Of a stretch of 64,000 nt of DNA, positions 21,263 to 32,911 are shown one piece after another (the stretch's first letter is position 1; each line of letters opens with the position of its first letter). The notes under the pieces were generated by a model. It was not told where the DNA came from and did not search any database. It saw only the letters and a list, made by a program, of their open reading frames with translations. The stretch is taken from assembly GCF_019599465.1 (NCBI RefSeq), contig NZ_RKLR01000001.1, positions 558,001 to 622,000 on the forward strand, in the 5' to 3' direction. The stretch comes from Haloarcula rubra. Lineage in GTDB: Archaea; Halobacteriota; Halobacteria; Halobacteriales; Haloarculaceae. The position numbers were made by a program, and so were the translations under genes.

Positions 21263-22804
21263 TCACGTTCGGTGCGTGTCTGTCGCCCAGTCGAGCGAGC
21301 GCTCGACGGCGGACTCCCAGCGGTCGTACTTCCGGGCCGCCGTCTCGGCGTCCAGCGACGGTTCGAACTGGCGGTCGACCTGCCAGTTCCACCGGAGTTC
21401 GTCGAGGGAGCCCCAGTAGTCGACGGCGAGGCCGGCCGCGTACGCCGCCCCGAGCGCCGTCGTCTCGTCGACTACCGGACGGACGATGTCCGTCTGGACG
21501 ACGTCAGACTGCAGTTGACAGAAGAAGTCGTTCTTCACCGCACCGCCGTCGACGCGTAGCGACGGCGTCGCCACCCCGGCGTCTGCCGCCATGGCGGTCG
21601 TCACGTCGCGGGTCTGATAGGCGATCGACTCCAGCGTCGCTCGGACGACGTGTGCTTTGCGGGTGCCACGGGTCAGCCCGACGATGGTCCCGCACGCGCG
21701 GCAGTCCCAGTGCGGCGCGCCCAGTCCGTCGAAGGCCGGCACCACGTAGACGCCGTCGGTCGAGTCGACGGAACGGGCCAGTTCTGCGGTCTGGGCGTCG
21801 TTGGTGAGCAGTCCGACGTCGCCCAACCACCTGATGGCTGCGCCCGCAGTGAACACCGACCCCTCCAGCGCGTACTGGACCGGCTCTCCCGACAGTTGAA
21901 AGCCGACGGTCGTCAACAGTCCGTGCTCGGACTCGACGGCGTCCTCGCCCGTGTGCATCAGGCAGAACGACCCGACGCCGTAGGTGTTCTTCGTGTCGCC
22001 GGGGTCGAAACAGGTCTGGCCGAGCAGCGCTGCCTGCTGGTCGCCCAGCGCACCGGCGACGGGAACCTCGGCCCCGAGGAAGCCGTCGGCGTCGGTGTAG
22101 CCGTAGTACGCCTCGTCGGAGGACGGGCGGACCGTCGGAAGCATCGACCGTGGTACGTCGAACTCCTCTAGGAGTGCGTCGTCCCACTCGAGGTCACGGA
22201 CGTCGTACAGCATCGTCCGCGAGGCGTTGGTGACGTCCGTGACGTGGTTGCCGGTGAGCTTGTAGACGAGCCACGCGTCGACGGTCCCGAACAGGAGGTC
22301 CCCCGCTTCGGCGCGGTCACGGACGTCGTCGGCCCGGGTCCGGTCGAGTTTCAGCGGGTCGGCGTTGTCGAGTATCCACTCGACTTTGGTCGCGGAGAAG
22401 TACGGGTCACACTCGAGGCCAGTCGTCTCGCGGATTCGGTCGGCCACGGCAGTGTCCCGCATCGCCGAGACACGGTCGACCGTTCGACGGTCCCGCCAGA
22501 CGAGTGCGTTGTACACCGGCCTCCCGGTTTCGGCGTCCCAGACGACGGTCGTCTCACGCTGATTCGCGACGCCGATAGCGCCGAGTTGTGTGGCGTCCAG
22601 CCCCGCGTCGTTCAGCGCAGTCGTCACGACGGCTTTCGTGTTGTTCCATATCTCCACGGGGTCGTGTTCGACCCATCCCGGTTCCGGGTGTATCTGTTCG
22701 TGTCGTCTGTACGCGCTGGCGACTACCCGCCCGTCGTGGTCGAAGACCATGAACCGGGTCCCCGCCGTCCCCTGGTCGATAGCGCCGACGTATGTCGTAG
22801 CCAT
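21263..22804 (-). CDS. glpK: glycerol kinase
   Basis: A 513-residue FGGY-family glycerol kinase, making sn-glycerol 3-phosphate from glycerol and ATP in the cytoplasm. GAIDQGTAGTRFMVFD at the N-terminus is the phosphate-binding motif (the usual SS pair is AG here), and GSFCLMHTG, DGLGAPHWD and LRVDGGAVKNDFFCQLQSD match the family. Length is normal. The usual glpABC dehydrogenase genes are not adjacent. It is divergent from gfcR across 238 bp; a GATTTTATAC element about 70 bases upstream implies a leader of roughly 40 bases. Confidence 0.95.
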   Translation of the reverse strand: MATTYVGAIDQGTAGTRFMVFDHDGRVVASAYRRHEQIHPEPGWVEHDPVEIWNNTKAVVTTALNDAGLDATQLGAIGVANQRETTVVWDAETGRPVYNALVWRDRRTVDRVSAMRDTAVADRIRETTGLECDPYFSATKVEWILDNADPLKLDRTRADDVRDRAEAGDLLFGTVDAWLVYKLTGNHVTDVTNASRTMLYDVRDLEWDDALLEEFDVPRSMLPTVRPSSDEAYYGYTDADGFLGAEVPVAGALGDQQAALLGQTCFDPGDTKNTYGVGSFCLMHTGEDAVESEHGLLTTVGFQLSGEPVQYALEGSVFTAGAAIRWLGDVGLLTNDAQTAELARSVDSTDGVYVVPAFDGLGAPHWDCRACGTIVGLTRGTRKAHVVRATLESIAYQTRDVTTAMAADAGVATPSLRVDGGAVKNDFFCQLQSDVVQTDIVRPVVDETTALGAAYAAGLAVDYWGSLDELRWNWQVDRQFEPSLDAETAARKYDRWESAVERSLDWATDTHRT

Positions 22805-23687: not shown

Positions 23688-24947
23688 TTATCCCGCTCGA
23701 CCGCCCTCGGTGACCGTCGCGAGTAGCGTGAGGTAGTCCTCGACCAAACGTGGGGTGAGGAACCGTTCGCGGACCGTCTCACGGCCTCGGTCGCCGAGGC
23801 TCGCACGGAGTTGGTCGTCCTCTAACAGTCCCGTGACTCGGTCGGCAGTGCCGGCGATGTCCATCGGTTCGACGAGGTAGCCGTTCACGCCGTCGTCGAT
23901 CTGCAGTGGGATACCACCGACGTCCCCCCCGACGACCGGCGTCCCCTTCCAGAGCGCCTCCGAGACGGTCAGCGCGAACCCTTCGCGCAGGGACTTCTGG
24001 AGGACGACGTCGGCGTACCGCTGGAGCGCGTTGATACCGGCGTCCGGGAGGTTCGTCAGGAGGTGGACGTCCGGCGAGTCTGCCGCTGCCGCTTCGACTT
24101 TCCGGTACACCTCGATACCCTCGGGGTCGTCGTCGGGCATCGACCCGACCAGCGCGAGTTGTGTGTCGGGTACCGATTCGGTCACATCGTGGTAGGCGTC
24201 GATGACGCCCAGCGGGTCCTTCCAGGGGTCGAACCGGGAGATCTGCAGCATCAACGGTCGGTCGGTGTCGAACGGGAAGCTCTCGGGGTCGGCCGCTTCG
24301 GCGGCCGCACCCGAGAGTTCGTCCAGCGGTCGGTTCTTCTCCGTGAGGGGGTCGATAGCGGGGTGGACGGCCACCTTCTCGACGCCCGAAATCGCGTCGC
24401 CGTACTCCGGGAGAGTGAATATCGCACGGTCGATGGGGTCCAGATACGACTGGACGAACTCGAGGTACGCCGGCGTCGCGTCCGTGAGGTCGATGTGGCA
24501 CCGCCAGACAAGCACCGTCTCGGGGAACGTCTCTGCCAGCGTCGGAGCCATACCGAGCGACTGTGGGTCGTGGAGCACGACGACGTCGTACCGGTCGGTC
24601 AGGGCCTGTGCGTTCTCGACGGTGACGGTCCGGTACGTCTCGCGCATCGACTCGGTGAACTCGCTGCGGTCACCCTGAAGGCCGTTGTGAATCGCCTTCG
24701 TCACGTCGTAGAACTCGTCCGGAGCGTCCATGACCAACCAATCCGTGTCGACACCCACGTCGTTCAGCAGTGGCACCAGCGAGTGGAGTATCTCCGCGAC
24801 ACCGCCGCCACTCGCCGTCGTGTTGACGTGTGCGACCCGGACGTCGCCGAGTTCCGACGCCGCCTCGTGTATCGCGTCACGCTGCTGCTCTCTGACGTAC
24901 GGGTCGTACGCCGCGATGGACTGGGACTCCGTGCGTGCGTTGTGCAT
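23688..24947 (-). CDS. treT: trehalose synthase of the TreT type (GT4)
   Basis: A 419-residue GT4 glycosyltransferase. VAHVNTTASGGGVAEILHSL is the nucleotide-sugar-side N-terminal loop typical of TreT, ISRFDPWKDPLGVIDAY the central motif, and SLREGFALTVSEALWKGTPV carries the E..7..E motif that binds the donor. TreT joins NDP-glucose and free glucose to trehalose in one step. The ATG at 24947 is preferred to a GTG six codons upstream. It lies third in a same-strand row after the mutase and the HAD gene, in keeping with osmolyte synthesis; other retaining GT4 activities cannot be excluded. Confidence 0.85.
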   Translation of the reverse strand: MHNARTESQSIAAYDPYVREQQRDAIHEAASELGDVRVAHVNTTASGGGVAEILHSLVPLLNDVGVDTDWLVMDAPDEFYDVTKAIHNGLQGDRSEFTESMRETYRTVTVENAQALTDRYDVVVLHDPQSLGMAPTLAETFPETVLVWRCHIDLTDATPAYLEFVQSYLDPIDRAIFTLPEYGDAISGVEKVAVHPAIDPLTEKNRPLDELSGAAAEAADPESFPFDTDRPLMLQISRFDPWKDPLGVIDAYHDVTESVPDTQLALVGSMPDDDPEGIEVYRKVEAAAADSPDVHLLTNLPDAGINALQRYADVVLQKSLREGFALTVSEALWKGTPVVGGDVGGIPLQIDDGVNGYLVEPMDIAGTADRVTGLLEDDQLRASLGDRGRETVRERFLTPRLVEDYLTLLATVTEGGRAG

Positions 24948-25030
24948 TACTTGGTAACAGTTCACATTCGGGGCACATTACGATTTGGGTGCTCCGGCGG
25001 GCGTTCGGTACCTCCTCATCGATAGGTCGG

Positions 25031-26287
25031 CTACGTGTCTGCCGCGAACCGGTTCAGTGCATACACCGTCCGGAGGATATCCCCGGCGTGGCCTTCGTCG
25101 AAGACGAGACCGTCAGTGGCCTCGACGTGGTCGAGGACACTCTGTGAAGCGTGTTCCGGGGCGGCTGCGAGTCCCGCGTCCTGTTCCTGCACCCAGCGCA
25201 TGACCCGCAGGTCGCTCTTGGAGTCACCCATGACGATGGCGAACGGGTCCTCGATACCGAGCACGTCGAACGCCGCCTCGACGCCGACGACCTTGCTCAG
25301 TTCGAGACTACCGATTTCGGCCGCGTCACCCTCGTAGTACCCGACGTCGATTCGGTCGAGGACGGCCGCTACCTCGGCCGAAACGTCGGCCGCGTCGGCG
25401 TCCGGCAGTTCCCCTGCCCGCTCCAGTACCGACCGAATCTCCGGGTCCTGGTCGGCGTAGTAGGCGCGCGCCCAGTCGCCGACCGTCTGCGGGTCGACAC
25501 CGCTGGCCTCGTCGAGGGCGGCGAGAGCGTCACCCAACAGGTCGAGTTCGTAGACCAATGCCTCGTCGATAACCGCCACCGCGTCGTCGGACCCCGTCTC
25601 GAAGTTGGGTTTCATCGTGATGTTGAACTCGTTGCCCTGCAAGTGACAGCCGTGACGGAGTCGCTCCGGTGCGTCCGAGAGGACGCGTGCGCGAACGTCG
25701 TCGAAGACGGCCCGTATCCCCTCGTCCAGTCGCTCGTAGAGCAGTTGCTTCGTCTGGGCGCCGTGTCGCGGCGTGAAGACGCCGGTGCCCGTCTCGTACA
25801 CGATGCTGAGGTCCCCCGAGTGGACGATTCGACTGCCCAGCCCCTGAATCGCGAAGCCTTTGACGTTCTCTAAGGTCTGGCCGGTACAGATGACGATGGG
25901 CATCCCCTCCTCGTGGAACTTCGTGAGGAGGTTGAGCGTGTCGCTGGGAATCTCGTTGTCGGTGCTCCCCGTCGACCGGAGCGTCTCGTCGACGTCGAGG
26001 ACGAACACGTTCACCGAGCGACCGTACTTGTTGTACAGGTCCAACCCGGTGAACGCCTGTTCCTGGCGCGCCCGAGTCGCGAGGTCCGCGAACGTCTCCC
26101 CCGCCTCGGGGAACGCCTCCGCTATCTCCGCTTTCCGCTCGTCGAGTTCCGTGTTTATCTCCTTCCAGCGGTCCAGCGCGACGGGTGACTCGACGAGCGG
26201 GAACAGGTCGACGAGGTTCTGCAGAGCGCGAACGGTGTCGGTGTCGTGCGTGTCGTACAGTTCGTAGAGTTGGTCGTACCGCTCCAT
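25031..26287 (-). CDS. HAD-superfamily sugar phosphatase, unknown substrate
   Basis: A 418-residue HAD hydrolase with a helical N-terminal region of about 110 residues. Motif I is VFVLDVDETLRSTG (DxD nucleophile pair), motif II is IVICTGQTLENV and motif IV is VMGDSKSDLRVM, a Cof-type (IIB) arrangement found in sugar phosphatases. Located between the phosphohexomutase and TreT genes, it might release free glucose, the acceptor TreT needs, from glucose 6-phosphate, or dephosphorylate another intermediate. The long N-terminal extension is not part of the usual HAD fold. It has its own leaderless-type promoter. Confidence 0.75.
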   Translation of the reverse strand: MERYDQLYELYDTHDTDTVRALQNLVDLFPLVESPVALDRWKEINTELDERKAEIAEAFPEAGETFADLATRARQEQAFTGLDLYNKYGRSVNVFVLDVDETLRSTGSTDNEIPSDTLNLLTKFHEEGMPIVICTGQTLENVKGFAIQGLGSRIVHSGDLSIVYETGTGVFTPRHGAQTKQLLYERLDEGIRAVFDDVRARVLSDAPERLRHGCHLQGNEFNITMKPNFETGSDDAVAVIDEALVYELDLLGDALAALDEASGVDPQTVGDWARAYYADQDPEIRSVLERAGELPDADAADVSAEVAAVLDRIDVGYYEGDAAEIGSLELSKVVGVEAAFDVLGIEDPFAIVMGDSKSDLRVMRWVQEQDAGLAAAPEHASQSVLDHVEATDGLVFDEGHAGDILRTVYALNRFAADT

Positions 26288-26405: not shown

Positions 26406-27776
26406 TCAGACAAGGGGCTCGACGATGTCACGACCGGCGTCGAGCAACTCCTCGACGTGGCTCTCGCTGTCTGCTTCGGCGTACACTCGGAGTTTCGGTT
26501 CGGTCCCGGACGGTCGCACCAGCAGCCACGACCCGTCGGCGAGGAATATCTTGAACCCGTCTTTCGTATCGACCCGGTCGACCGAGACGCCGAGTATGGT
26601 CTCTGGCAGCGACCCGTCCAGTTCGTCGAGGACCGCCGCTTTCCGGTCGTCCGGGCAGTCGACGCTGATTCGGTCCTGATAGATGTCGCCGTGCGCCGCG
26701 GTAATCGCGTCGACGCGGTCGTCCAACGGCCGCTCGGTGTGCGCGGCAGCGACGACCAGTGCGATGAGGACGCCGTCCTTGTTCCGCAGGTGGCGGGTGA
26801 TGCCGAACCCGCCGGACTCCTCGCCGCCACAGAGCGCCCCCGCGTCCTGCATGCCCTGTGCCACCCACTTGAAGCCGACCGGGACCTCGACCGTCTCTTC
26901 GCCGTGGGCCGCTGCAATCTTGTCGACGAGGAACGTGGTCGAGACGGTTCTGACTGCGGGGCCGCCGTCTGATTCGAGCAGGTACTCGTAGAGCGCGGCG
27001 TAGAGGAGGTTCGGGTCGAGGAATCCACGACCGGGCGTGACGACGGCGAGGCGGTCGGCGTCGCCGTCGTTGGCGAACCCCAACTCGGCGTCGCCCTCCG
27101 TCACGCGCTCGACGAGGGTGTCGAGTTTATCGGCCGTCGGTTCGGGGGAGCCACCGCCGAACGTGGGGTCTAACTCACATCGGAGTCGCTGGACGTCCGC
27201 ACCCGCCTCCGCGAGCAACGCGTCGGTGACGTCGCGGCCGCTCCCGTGCATTGCGTCGTAGGCGACGGACAACCCAGTGATGTCGGCCTCCGTGAACGCC
27301 AGCGCGTGCCGAATGTACTCGGGGACGAGGTTCTCCTCGCTGACGGTGCCGTGTTCTGCCTCCGGACGCAGGTCGGGTTCGGCGAGAAGTGATTCCAGCC
27401 TGTCTGTAATCGCCTCGCCCGCAGGCGAGCCGTCGGGTGAGAGGAATTTCACGCCGTTGTACTCCGGCGGGTTGTGGCTCGCGGTCACGACGAGGCCGCC
27501 GTCTAACTGGCGGTCTTTGAGCGTCCAGGCCAGTACTGGGGTCGGACAGTCACGTTCGCTCACGACGACGTCGAGACCGTTGCCAGCCAGCACCTCGGTG
27601 AGTGCCCTCGCGAAGCGGGGCGACGTTTCACGGGCGTCGTACCCGACACCCACCGTCGTCGCGTCCTGTTCGCGGAAGTACTCGGCCGCCGCCTGTGCCA
27701 CGATTCGAACGCGTTCTTCAGTGAACGTATCGAGCGTTGCGCGCCAACCGTCGGTACCGAAGACTATCTCGTTCAT
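26406..27776 (-). CDS. phosphoglucomutase/phosphomannomutase family
   Basis: A 456-residue alpha-D-phosphohexomutase interconverting hexose 6- and 1-phosphates. The phosphoserine loop is VVTASHNPPEYNG (residues about 95-107), the metal loop DGDADRLAV, the sugar loop GGEESGGFG and the phosphate-binding loop RPSGTEPKLRVY. All four are intact. Whether glucose or mannose is preferred cannot be told; beside TreT and a sugar nucleotidyltransferase, making glucose 1-phosphate is the natural reading. A TAAAGTATTA element about 30 bases upstream suggests a leaderless message. Confidence 0.93.
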   Translation of the reverse strand: MNEIVFGTDGWRATLDTFTEERVRIVAQAAAEYFREQDATTVGVGYDARETSPRFARALTEVLAGNGLDVVVSERDCPTPVLAWTLKDRQLDGGLVVTASHNPPEYNGVKFLSPDGSPAGEAITDRLESLLAEPDLRPEAEHGTVSEENLVPEYIRHALAFTEADITGLSVAYDAMHGSGRDVTDALLAEAGADVQRLRCELDPTFGGGSPEPTADKLDTLVERVTEGDAELGFANDGDADRLAVVTPGRGFLDPNLLYAALYEYLLESDGGPAVRTVSTTFLVDKIAAAHGEETVEVPVGFKWVAQGMQDAGALCGGEESGGFGITRHLRNKDGVLIALVVAAAHTERPLDDRVDAITAAHGDIYQDRISVDCPDDRKAAVLDELDGSLPETILGVSVDRVDTKDGFKIFLADGSWLLVRPSGTEPKLRVYAEADSESHVEELLDAGRDIVEPLV

Positions 27777-28286
27777 GCGAGATTCTACGTAGTGGTGGAG
27801 TAATACTTTATCTCCGTCGACAGGGAGGGCCGACACACGTCCGAACGTTCGAGGTGCGTTGCAATCTCCAGTGCGACCACCCGTCACGGACGACCCGAAT
27901 CACGGACGCGTACGTCGCGACCGTGGCCGAGGATGGCGACGGCAACGGGCCGTGATAACGGGCCTGCCGAGCTAGACGATAGATAATGATAGATGCCGTT
28001 CAGAATAAAGAATACCGTCAAGAACGGACAGTTTCGTGGAGTCGCCGTACGTGGTAATGTTGGGCAGACAACACTACCGAATCTAATAACGTAGGTACTT
28101 CTGTTATAATATCACCAGCACTAATATCAAATGTCTGTAATGATGGGAGGTGCGAGTCGAATACCCCACCCCTGCTGTGACGCTGTTCGGACGCACTGTG
28201 GTCGCTCTACAGACGATTCGAGAAGGGAGAGTCTGTTCCGGGAGCGTCGAGAGCGGCGGTGCGAGGACGAGGTCGTCGCACCGTCG
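27777..28286. other. 510-bp spacer with a 26-bp imperfect hairpin
   Basis: Between the mutase promoter and the end of the fructose-bisphosphatase gene. 28053-28078 holds GGTAATGTTG and CAACACTACC around six bases (nine of ten pairs), downstream of the fbp stop on its strand. 27960-28130 is AT-rich. A short plus-strand reading frame around 27840-27955 (ending ...VATVAEDGDGNGP) has coding-like codon use but no identifiable start and may be a gene fragment. Nothing else is recognisable. Confidence 0.5.
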
Positions 28287-29132
28287 CTACTCGTCGAGTG
28301 TCCTCTCGACGCGGTCGATGAGGTCCGTGTTCCCGAGGAACGTCGGCGTGCGTGCGTGCAGACTGTCCGGTTCGACGTCGAGAATCGACTGCGTGCCGTC
28401 CGTCGACCCGCCGCCGGCCGCTTCGACCAGGTGAGCGAGCGGTGCGGACTCGAAGTGGACGCGGAGTTTGCCGTCGGGGTTCGGAGTGGTCCGCGGATAG
28501 CCGAACAGACCGCCGTACTCGAGCACCTGCGCGAGGTCCGCGACCGTCGCACCGCCGTACCGGAGTTTCATCTCCTGTTCGAGTTCCGTTGCGAACGCGT
28601 TGAACGTCGCGCTCCGGTTGCTCGATATCCCTGCCAGCCCCACTACGGTCGCCTTCGACGGGAGTTCGAACTGGCCCCAGCGTTCGCTGTGGCCGTCCCG
28701 GAGCAGGTACTCCTGGACTTCCTCCCGGTCGTTACGTGCGACGGTCATGGTCGTGTAGGGACCGTACAGCACCATTATCGAGGCGACGAGTTCACGTCCG
28801 GACGCGGGGAGTTCCGCGTCGTAGACGCCGACGATAGTGCCGACGGAGTTGTTCGACGCGATGTTTGACGACCCGTCGAGTGGGTCGATGGCGACGGTGT
28901 AGCCGTCGCCACAGTCGGTGACCGTCTCTCGTTCCTCGCTGGCGTACTCCCCGACGCCTTCGATGGGGGCGAGCGAATCGTAGAACAGCGAGTCCGCCCA
29001 GACGTCGGCGCCGATCTGGTCCTCGCCACTCGGGTTCGTCCCACCGCTCGCGCCCGCGTAGTTCGCGACGTTGTCGCTCACGTAGTGGGCGGTGTTCCTG
29101 ACCTCTCGGGCGATATTTTCGAGTGTGTTCAT
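28287..29132 (-). CDS. fbp: fructose-1,6-bisphosphatase, class I
   Basis: A 281-residue class I FBPase, hydrolysing fructose 1,6-bisphosphate to fructose 6-phosphate in gluconeogenesis. The metal-binding motif [12 protein letters not shown] is clear, with [15 protein letters not shown] ahead of it and [14 protein letters not shown] later. It is somewhat shorter than bacterial or eukaryotic enzymes (about 330 residues), as usual in archaea. Unlike many genes here it has a good Shine-Dalgarno, GGAGGAG ending about 6 bases before the ATG, and an AAAATATATC promoter element near 29200, so its mRNA has a leader. Confidence 0.9.
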
Positions 29133-29332: not shown

Positions 29333-30184
29333 TCAGAACTCGATGACACCGTTCTCGGTGACGACCGAGTCGAGGAGGTCGGTCGGTGTCGCGTCGTACC
29401 CCGGGTTCGCTACGTCGAACCCGTCCGCCGGTTCACGCATCACTTCTGCGGGTGACCGGAAGTTGTTCTCGAAGTTGAATCCGCTACCGATGAACTTCGC
29501 GGACGAAGCGACGACCGTCACGGGGACACCGGCGTCGGCGGCCGTCGCGACGATAGGGTAGGTCCCGACGCGGTTGTAGACGGTGTCGTCGACGAGGCAG
29601 TTCATGCCGACGAGGACGCGGTCGCACTCGGAGAGGTAGTGTCCCGCGGCGCCGTCGACGATGAGCGTCACGTCGACGTCGTCTCGGCCCGCCAGCTGCC
29701 GGGCCGTCCGACGCCCGAGAAACCGTGGTCGCGATTCGGTCACGAACAGGTCGAGCTGCTTGCCCGACTCGAGCGCGTGTTCCAGCGTCGCCATCACCGT
29801 CGAAGAGTTCTCGTGTGTCAACACGACGTCGCCGTCCGCTACGAGCGTCGCCGCCTTCTCTGCGGCCCCCTCTTTACTCGATTCGATCTCGGTGACGACC
29901 TCCTCGATGGCGGCGAGCAGTTGTTCCTTCGCGGCGTCGACGGTCTCCGGGGACGATTCGGAGAGCGCCGTCACGATACGTTGCTGTGACGTGTACAGCG
30001 GTGCGTGCGAGCGGTTCGTCTGCCGCAACACGCTACTGTTTCGCTCGACCGACCGGACGAAGTCTTCGACGGTATGGTACTCCCGGTCGGTCAACTCCCG
30101 GAGCGCTTCGGCGGCTTTGACGGCGACTATCGAGGAGCTTTGTGTCTGCATCTCCTCTATCTGGGTCACTGTTTCGTCTATCAT
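29333..30184 (-). CDS. eIF2B / ribose-1,5-bisphosphate isomerase-like protein
   Basis: A 283-residue protein of the eIF2B alpha/R15P isomerase family, with helical N-terminal half and a Rossmann-like C-terminal half (TVYNRVGTYPIVATAADAGV, LFVTESRPRFLGRRTA). In ribose-1,5-bisphosphate isomerases the active-site cysteine lies in a T-H-C-N-S segment; here the matching stretch reads VVLTHENSSTVM, with glutamate instead. The aspartate segment corresponds to LVDDTVYNRVG. It may therefore bind a sugar phosphate without isomerising it, or do a different reaction. Divergent from the aldolase gene. The ATG at 30184 is preferred over an upstream GTG. Confidence 0.75.
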   Translation of the reverse strand: MIDETVTQIEEMQTQSSSIVAVKAAEALRELTDREYHTVEDFVRSVERNSSVLRQTNRSHAPLYTSQQRIVTALSESSPETVDAAKEQLLAAIEEVVTEIESSKEGAAEKAATLVADGDVVLTHENSSTVMATLEHALESGKQLDLFVTESRPRFLGRRTARQLAGRDDVDVTLIVDGAAGHYLSECDRVLVGMNCLVDDTVYNRVGTYPIVATAADAGVPVTVVASSAKFIGSGFNFENNFRSPAEVMREPADGFDVANPGYDATPTDLLDSVVTENGVIEF

Positions 30185-31388: not shown

Positions 31389-32348
31389 TTACTGCTCGTC
31401 GTCGGGGAGCGGGCTCACGAGCGCGTCCGAGACGCGCAGGTCCGAAATCTCGACGCCGGCGTCGAGAATCGTCTCGTCCAGTTTGGCGTTCTCCACCGTG
31501 GCGTTCGGGAACACGAGCGCTCTGTCGAGCGTCGCGTCGACCACTTTCGCACCCTCCATGACGTGGACGGTGTCGCCGATGTCGGCGTTCTCGACCGTCG
31601 CGCCGGGATGGACGAGCGACTCGCCGTCGAGTTGCCACTCGACGGCCTCGAAGTACGACGCCGGCGTCCCGATGTCGAACCACGTGTCGTCGAACGTGTA
31701 CGCGTAGACCGACTCCTCGGACTGGAGCCAGTCGATGTACCACCCCGGTTCGTCGGGGTTGTTCTCTGCCGAGAGGTACTCCGAGAAGCGAACCGAGTCG
31801 GCGGGGAACGTATAACAGGCGATGGAGACCAGCGTGCTCTTTGGCTCGTCGGGCTTCTCCTGGAAGTCGACGACTCGGTCACCGTCCAGTTCGACCAGCC
31901 CGTAGGATTTGGCTTTCTCGCGGGAGCCGACGTCGTAGGCGGCGAGGACTGGGGCGTCTTTCTCCTCGAAGTAGTCGAGGAACTCGCCGAGGTCGAAGCC
32001 GATGAGGTTGTCGCCCCCGATGACGAACAGGTCGTCGTCGATACCCTCGCGCTCGCGGAGTTGGGCGAGTGCGCCGACGACACCGAACTTCTCGTCCTCG
32101 TCGCGGGTTTGCTCGACCGAGAGCTGTGTCTTCTGGTAGTTCATCGCGTCGATGTGTGCCTCGAAGTCGTCGGCGAAGGCCTCGTTCGTACTCAGGAATA
32201 TCGTGTCGATGCGATCGTCCGCCTCCAGTGCCTCGATGATTCTGTCGATGACGGTCGTCTCACCGACCGGGAGGAGCATCTTCGGCCGGTTCCGAGTAAT
32301 CGGCCACAGTCGTGTCGCGAACCCGCCGGCTAGTACTATCGCGTCCAT
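31389..32348 (-). CDS. sugar-1-phosphate nucleotidyltransferase
   Basis: A 319-residue nucleotidyltransferase. MDAIVLAGGFATRLWPITRN has the GG.ATRL.P nucleotide-binding signature, PKMLLPVGETTVID the following lysine segment, and VIGGDNLIGFD the metal-binding aspartate. About 65 C-terminal residues (GATVENADIGDTVHV and onward) form hexapeptide left-handed beta-helix repeats. It would make UDP- or dTDP-glucose (or a mannose equivalent) from the sugar 1-phosphate; in this setting NDP-glucose for TreT is likely. An ATG three codons upstream is a second possible start. Confidence 0.88.
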   Translation of the reverse strand: MDAIVLAGGFATRLWPITRNRPKMLLPVGETTVIDRIIEALEADDRIDTIFLSTNEAFADDFEAHIDAMNYQKTQLSVEQTRDEDEKFGVVGALAQLREREGIDDDLFVIGGDNLIGFDLGEFLDYFEEKDAPVLAAYDVGSREKAKSYGLVELDGDRVVDFQEKPDEPKSTLVSIACYTFPADSVRFSEYLSAENNPDEPGWYIDWLQSEESVYAYTFDDTWFDIGTPASYFEAVEWQLDGESLVHPGATVENADIGDTVHVMEGAKVVDATLDRALVFPNATVENAKLDETILDAGVEISDLRVSDALVSPLPDDEQ

Positions 32349-32911
32349 GGTTGTCATTCACACGCAAAGCACAAAGCTATCGGGGGTGTCGCTGCGGGCG
32401 GTGTCCCGTGCGGAGACACACACGGCGCAACACGACGGGGACAGCCAGAAAGCCCCACCCGAAACTGGCTTCCCTACCGGGCAGCGTAGCGACGTGGCGT
32501 CGTCGCCGCTTCCCGCCGACCGCTCGGCAGACCGACGGTCGCCCGGTGGCAATCCCACCGACGTCGGCCGAGAGACGTACCACAACGAGGGCGCACTGTG
32601 TACGTTCTGCTCCAATACATTCTTACTCGGTCCGTATTTGTTCTCCAAAAACCACGTATTTCATCCGTTTGGTGGATTTTTGGCTATATAAGAGGTCTGA
32701 AATTAGCTATATGGTACTAGTTTCGAATCAATAGGTGTTGTAGGGTATATTTTATAGTTAGAATGTATTTCGAGAGGTAGATCTGTCTCCAGAGCCGACT
32801 GTCCTCGTCACGGCCAGAGGGTCGGTACAGGCATCCCAGACGGGCGACGGCCGACGCGTCCTGACGACTACGCACCCGTCTCTTTTTGTCGAGCCGTCGA
32901 TAGCCACTGGT
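32349..32911. promoter_or_regulatory. 563-bp spacer with stem-loop and strong TATA elements
   Basis: The right edge of the carbohydrate block. An imperfect dyad, CCAAAAACCAC (32645-32655) against GTGGATTTTTGG (32672-32683), is followed at once by CTATATAAG (32684-32692), one of the best TATA elements in the window, and by GGTATATTTTATAG near 32743-32756. Only ORFs of a few codons follow within promoter distance, so a small RNA or long leader for the next gene is possible. No protein gene is supported here. Confidence 0.5.

Follow-up and report, generated by a model that had tools for sequence, protein, structure and literature searches.

What does a protein with the fold of an isomerase, and with neither of the catalytic residues of that isomerase, do among genes of gluconeogenesis? 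The question is raised by an intact open reading frame at positions 29333-30184 (minus strand) of a stretch of 64,000 nucleotides from Haloarcula rubra, the whole of which is called the window below. The frame encodes 283 amino acids from its ATG, and there is an in-frame GTG seven codons 5' of that start. Several answers had to be weighed: the product could be a ribose-1,5-bisphosphate isomerase (R15Pi) or a similar isomerase, an enzyme with a different chemistry, a translation-initiation factor, a decaying duplicate, or a sugar-phosphate sensor.

The protein belongs to the eIF2B/R15Pi superfamily, as the PF01008 profile matches it over the full length (E = 8.7e-52; 176.5 bits, the curated cut-off being 22.4). 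However, it does not reach the R15Pi equivalog TIGR00511 (156.2 bits vs. a cut-off of 314.1) or the profile of methylthioribose-1-phosphate isomerase, MtnA (TIGR00512, 92.2 bits vs. 279), and it stays under all other listed NCBIfam cut-offs of the superfamily. With MtnA, an enzyme of the methionine salvage pathway that operates by Cys/Asp catalysis, it shares the PF01008 fold and this weak profile match. The genome contains three PF01008 genes: the window gene, a paralogue of the type of Haloferax HVO_2706, and a NUDIX-fused gene whose product fits the description of HVO_1934 in PMC8576121. None of the three qualifies as R15Pi, hence the genome is without this enzyme, which scores over the cut-off in 44 of 99 sampled Halobacteriales.

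In the HMMER alignment with solved R15Pi structures, the THENS segment (residues 123-127; 29804-29818, minus strand) corresponds to THCHS, and Glu125 is opposite the catalytic Cys (Cys133 in Thermococcus kodakarensis R15Pi, Cys135 in Pyrococcus horikoshii R15Pi). This bears out the glutamate of the original prediction, which had, however, given the R15Pi segment as T-H-C-N-S. The GMNC segment (residues 193-196; 29597-29608, minus strand) corresponds to GADS, with Asn195 in the place of Asp202 of the T. kodakarensis enzyme and Asp204 of the P. horikoshii one, the catalytic aspartate. The further claim that the Asp region remains was therefore wrong, since Asn occupies this position in the window protein and in all 29 sampled members of what we call the GMNC clade. 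The catalytic-Cys position is less uniform in the clade, being Glu125 in 26 of 28 members and Ser in the other two.

To map the rest of the pocket, the ligand contacts of P. horikoshii R15Pi (PMC5789824) were located in 90 aligned haloarchaeal sequences, which fall into three classes. The catalytic-Cys position is Cys in R15Pi, Asp in the HVO_2706 type and Glu (in two cases, Ser) in the GMNC clade; the catalytic-Asp position is Asp in R15Pi, Asp, Ser or Thr in the HVO_2706 type and Asn in the clade. The residues that bind the 1-phosphate in R15Pi (Arg22, Gly23, Arg65, Gln166 and Lys215 in P. horikoshii numbering) are all changed in the window protein, to Gln, Ser, Asn, Leu and Arg, respectively. 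The same five residues prevail in the clade, while the HVO_2706 type mainly has His, Ser, Asn, Leu and Arg. On the 5-phosphate and sugar side, Ser127 (the last residue of THENS), Lys230 and Asn204 are invariant in all three classes, apart from a gap at Ser127 in one truncated row. Thus, the sugar-phosphate-binding regions, initially said to remain, do remain on this side, but not on the 1-phosphate side. The AMP-site residues are mixed even among haloarchaeal R15Pi, hence their conservation is uninformative as a test of R15Pi-like allostery.

From these residues, the protein is predicted to be unable to perform the R15Pi reaction. In P. horikoshii R15Pi, mutating the catalytic Cys or Asp abolishes turnover, and the C135S and D204N variants still hold substrate (PMC5789824); Asn195 is the residue carried by the latter mutant. 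It is very improbable, in our estimate, that the protein is a genuine R15Pi in which Glu acts for Cys, or a similarly altered isomerase of some other bisphosphate, for instance glucose-1,6-bisphosphate. The full-length homology, the common fold and the enzymes handling fructose-1,6-bisphosphate next door would agree with such an activity, but the profile score is half of what is required (156 vs. 314 bits), neither the catalytic pair nor the 1-phosphate site is preserved, and the pathway is missing: the absence of RuBisCO and AMP phosphorylase, first noted for the vicinity of the gene, extends to the entire genome, where a search found no RuBisCO and nothing over the AMP phosphorylase cut-off, in addition to the lack of R15Pi. 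Moreover, haloarchaea have a true R15Pi that is distinct from the present protein; it shares 48% identity with that of T. kodakarensis and has an active homologue in Haloterrigena (PMC9700705), and the haloarchaeal R15Pi sequences retrieved for comparison keep THCHS and GADS. What the window protein has in common with R15Pi (TIGR00511; T. kodakarensis, 3A11; P. horikoshii, 5YFJ; VNG_1853G/Htur_0571) is the superfamily, the fold, the 5-phosphate Ser and Lys and the sugar Asn, whereas the Cys/Asp catalytic pair, the 1-phosphate site and the pathway partners are all absent. An R15Pi with altered chemistry was thus rejected on the score, the catalytic residues and the pathway context.

The AlphaFold2 model of the protein, built with a 12-sequence alignment, has a mean pLDDT of 82.7 and a weak loop at residues 239-260. 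Foldseek ranked R15Pi structures first, followed by structures of aIF2B, eIF2B-alpha and MtnA; the top match was the R15Pi D204N mutant, with other R15Pi structures nearly equal in score. The TM score of the model was 0.88 to R15Pi (by query) and about 0.76 to eIF2B-alpha. The predicted fold does not tell a sensor from an enzyme.

In the maximum-likelihood tree, the members with Asn195 form one clade (support 100/100), nested in the HVO_2706 type beside the Haloarcula copies; the HVO_2706-type protein of the window's genome is sister to that of Haloarcula pellucida. The clade thus derives from a duplicated HVO_2706-type gene in or near the Haloarcula lineage. Judging by the aligned residues, the recent step from the parent was the pair of changes Asp to Glu and Asp to Asn, as the parent already had Asp at the Cys position, and the initial picture of an R15Pi with one swapped residue is hence misleading. 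The HVO_2706 type (a haloarchaeal 'eIF-2B domain protein' annotated as aIF2B-delta; the own-genome paralogue is found in L002/L068) resembles the window protein in identity (~63%), length, fold and the lost 1-phosphate site. It differs in having THD[FY]S, GM[D/S/T]C and His at residue 15, where the window protein has THENS, GMNC and Gln15, so that the latter is not of this type and falls in a clade of its own. Several genomes have Ser or Thr at the catalytic-Asp position of their HVO_2706-type protein (L077, L078, L086, L102 and L103), and this drift suggests that the parent family, too, is something other than an R15Pi-like enzyme.

Members of the clade are also found in Natrialbaceae, Haloferacaceae and two further families, suggesting transfer between families. 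The codon pattern for THENSSTV was detected in 24 of 392 Halobacteriales genomes, a single time in each, while the reversed control pattern gives no matches, and the pN/pS ratio in the clade (0.24-0.35) indicates purifying selection; thus, THENS is not a chance occurrence. GMNC was present at every translated THENS-bearing locus that gave a reading. It is hardly credible, then, that the gene is a decaying, functionless duplicate: the loss of the catalytic residues would be expected of one, but not such pN/pS values, an Asn fixed specifically in the clade, and retention across families after the apparent transfer. The window gene is a variant in a known superfamily. What stands out is no single unusual residue, but a whole clade that is linked, under selection and uniform in its remodelled pocket, and for which both the R15Pi and the aIF2B labels mislead.

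The linkage concerns genes of sugar metabolism. Divergently from the window gene, 137 bp away, lies a class II fructose-bisphosphate aldolase gene (NF041368; 30322-31314, plus strand), the only PF01116 gene in the genome and the partner that had been recognized at the outset; beyond it is a gene for a sugar-1-phosphate nucleotidyltransferase (31389-32357, minus strand). On the strand of the window gene, the order downstream is a class I fructose-1,6-bisphosphatase (FBPase; 28287-29132, after a gap of 200 bp), a phosphohexomutase of the phosphoglucomutase/phosphomannomutase family (26406-27887; the true start may be internal), a HAD-family hydrolase (25031-26230; approximate start) and a TreT-like trehalose synthase, a glycosyltransferase (23688-24965), all on the minus strand. 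The original prediction had overlooked the FBPase, phosphohexomutase, trehalose-synthase-like and nucleotidyltransferase neighbours, as well as the Asp-to-Asn change.

In other genomes, the neighbours of the clade are 4-alpha-glucanotransferase (malQ), a glycogen-synthase-like glycosyltransferase, DUF7510, nucleotidyltransferase, phosphohexomutase, and FBPase or aldolase, in combinations and orders that vary between genomes. At least one gluconeogenic or glucan gene was present within 6.4 kb at 23 of 27 clade loci, many of which are near-identical Haloarcula loci (and with one distant phosphohexomutase, at L035, left out of the count), compared with none of the 20 sampled HVO_2706-type loci. 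When the loci were collapsed to lineages, by our own grouping, and new loci were added, the linkage held in 10 of 15 clade lineages and in none of approximately 12 HVO_2706-type lineages (p about 4e-4). Among seven further pattern-bearing loci, L172 repeats the Haloarcula arrangement, L177 is L034, already counted, L178 has a HAD neighbour, and the remaining four (L173-L176, one Haloarcula sub-clade), all out of sample, have no linked sugar genes. L046, L036 and L064 likewise are without gluconeogenic or glucan neighbours. Thus, the linkage of the clade to sugar genes is real but not universal, universality being ruled out by L173-L176.

Several other genes recur in these neighbourhoods. A HAD-IIB-like protein of ~400 amino acids with a non-HAD N-terminal part is encoded beside the clade at window 25031-26230, L039:4122-5378, L040:8929-10173 and L062:8875-10191, and a relative adjoins the clade member in L178. 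DUF7510, a small haloarchaeal protein (L034:11657-12004 and homologues), is a constant member of the cluster with malQ, the glycogen-synthase-like gene and the nucleotidyltransferase (17 of 27 loci). A glycerol-kinase-like FGGY kinase is encoded upstream in the window (21263-22804), an FGGY kinase gene adjoins the Natronococcus clade member (L039:9107-10642), and a gene resembling FAD-dependent glycerol-3-phosphate dehydrogenase adjoins Haloarcula clade members (L048:8937-10157). The TreT-like gene of the window sits in a Haloarcula-group genome; TreT in this group has been reported from one strain only, Halomicroarcula F13, and from no Haloarcula (PMC8600319).

We also considered control of the cluster by TrmB. 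The TrmB motif, which we take to be TACT-N7/8-GAGTA, does not occur in the window; when it was relaxed, one site turned up elsewhere, which is at chance level. The table of TrmB targets in Haloarcula hispanica names an fbp gene and no eIF2B-like gene (PMC10817205), and this type of control was rejected.

The linkage bears on the possibility that the protein is an aIF2B-like subunit or variant acting in translation initiation via aIF2-alpha, perhaps in a hetero-oligomer with the HVO_2706-type paralogue, and that its location among sugar genes is incidental. The eIF2B fold, the annotation of the nearest paralogue as aIF2B-delta (PMC8576121) and the binding of aIF2-alpha by aIF2B-type proteins of other archaea (cited in PMC8576121) speak for such a role. 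On the other hand, a linkage that recurs in 10 of 15 lineages is no accident, the factor network of Haloferax shows just one or two interactions for HVO_2706 and HVO_1934 (PMC8576121), and deletion of HVO_2706 had no phenotype in 12 conditions (PMC3828320). In the literature on HVO_2706 we found nothing beyond the Haloferax translation-factor work. The translation-factor reading rests on annotation, and we consider it rather unlikely.

Class I FBPase, one of the linked enzymes, is encoded by three genes in this genome, which represent two subtypes (window 28287-29132; G000:C31:601984-602826; G000:C11:188465-189265). The one in the window is a diverged duplicate that shares 74% identity with the copy at C31 and 48% with the third; FBPases of its subtype are ~67-74% identical, those of the common haloarchaeal subtype, from which it is distinct, ~47-54%. 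Of six FBPases encoded beside clade members, five belong to the window subtype. In two genomes of a different family, G023 and G054, an FBPase gene of this subtype is next to the clade gene, on the same strand, and the resident FBPase gene has another location, suggesting that the clade gene and the neighbouring FBPase gene moved together.

A place among pathway enzymes could also mean that the protein is itself an enzyme, with Glu125 as a general base assisted by Asn195, for example a hexose-monophosphate isomerase or epimerase in the pathway from gluconeogenesis to glucan. Classical phosphoglucose isomerase uses a catalytic Glu, the fold family is that of aldose-ketose isomerases, and the strict conservation of Glu125 in most members (with Asn195 in all) would fit a catalytic role as well. 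The clusters, moreover, have aldolase, FBPase, phosphohexomutase, nucleotidyltransferase and glucan synthesis, that is, every step from triose phosphate to glucan except fructose-6-phosphate to glucose-6-phosphate. However, no step lacks an enzyme, as classical phosphoglucose isomerase (PF00342) occurs in nearly all genomes of the order, 287 of 293 Halobacteriales, and is encoded in the window's genome, so that its replacement by the clade protein was rejected. Known family members act on aldose-1-phosphates, while here the 1-phosphate site is replaced. The sub-clade with Ser for Glu (L063/L065) retains the adjacent FBPase, which makes a new chemistry based on Glu125 less likely, and we regard such an enzyme as unlikely.

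The remaining comparison is with eIF2B-alpha (human and yeast; PDB 7KMA, 7KMF), a regulatory subunit and known sugar-phosphate sensor. The eukaryotic setting, a heterodecamer with guanine-nucleotide-exchange activity, is to our knowledge absent from archaea. In eIF2B-alpha, the catalytic Cys is replaced and the 1-phosphate residues are missing, while those for the 5-phosphate and the sugar are kept (PMC5789824), and fructose-6-phosphate binds in this pocket with a Kd of 9.4 uM (PMC8187479). The numbering offsets between these two papers are constant, from which we infer that Ala129, Glu198, Asn208 and Lys234 of eIF2B-alpha correspond to Glu125, Asn195, Asn204 and Lys230 of the window protein. 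Besides the fold, the two thus share the replaced Cys, the lost 1-phosphate site, and the sugar Asn and phosphate Lys. Of the seven human contacts with fructose-6-phosphate, the equivalents of Gly196, Asn208 and Lys234 alone are kept, and the other four are changed (Ala129 to Glu, Tyr130 to Asn, Glu198 to Asn and Arg132 to Ser). The window protein does not have the acid that eIF2B-alpha retains at the Asp204/Glu198 position, where it carries Asn195; eIF2B-alpha has Ala at the Cys position, where the window protein carries an acid, as if the acidic side chain had in effect changed sides within the pocket.

In sequence terms, the catalytic residues and the 1-phosphate site are lost, the other ligand positions are kept, the clade is monophyletic and under purifying selection, and it is linked to sugar genes. 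We give about an even chance to the proposal that the window protein is an HVO_2706-type paralogue that acquired a new function after duplication, is probably non-catalytic and sugar-phosphate-binding, and serves as an eIF2B-alpha-like sensor for gluconeogenesis and alpha-glucan synthesis. Of the two functions first suggested, a sensor or an enzyme for another bisphosphate, the former is better supported, since the catalytic residues are gone, the phosphate and sugar residues of the eIF2B-alpha type are partly kept, and the gene travels with gluconeogenic and glucan genes; the latter is disfavoured by the replaced 1-phosphate residues.

We infer ligand binding, the identity of the ligand, the oligomeric state, the partner and the regulatory output along the following lines. 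Since the duplication, the protein has kept its R15Pi/eIF2B-alpha fold and one of the two halves of the ancestral pocket, and a sugar monophosphate of gluconeogenesis would bind in the ancestral active site, as in human eIF2B-alpha. The first candidate is fructose-6-phosphate, because FBPase recurs as the adjacent gene in independent lineages, and fructose-6-phosphate is both its product and a tight-binding ligand of eIF2B-alpha. Ligand occupancy would be passed through an oligomer to a partner, which may tune gluconeogenesis or alpha-glucan and trehalose synthesis (FBPase, aldolase or a glucan enzyme), or else translation. The bolder form of this proposal, that the clade, previously undescribed, uses an eIF2B-fold protein as a dedicated allosteric sensor of archaeal gluconeogenic flux (fructose-6-phosphate or similar) controlling FBPase, aldolase or glucan synthesis, is possible but doubtful.

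If true, it would be an independent prokaryotic parallel of sugar-phosphate sensing by eukaryotic eIF2B-alpha. Eukaryotic eIF2B-alpha senses sugar phosphates in a pocket derived from an isomerase, and the matter of interest is how an enzyme turned into a sensor. The archaeal paralogues show a stepwise change, from the isomerase (Cys/Asp) through an intermediate (Asp with Asp, Ser or Thr) to a derived Glu/Asn clade that is linked to genes of gluconeogenesis. As an experimental system they are compact, with one gene, which can be deleted, and with obvious candidates for the ligand.
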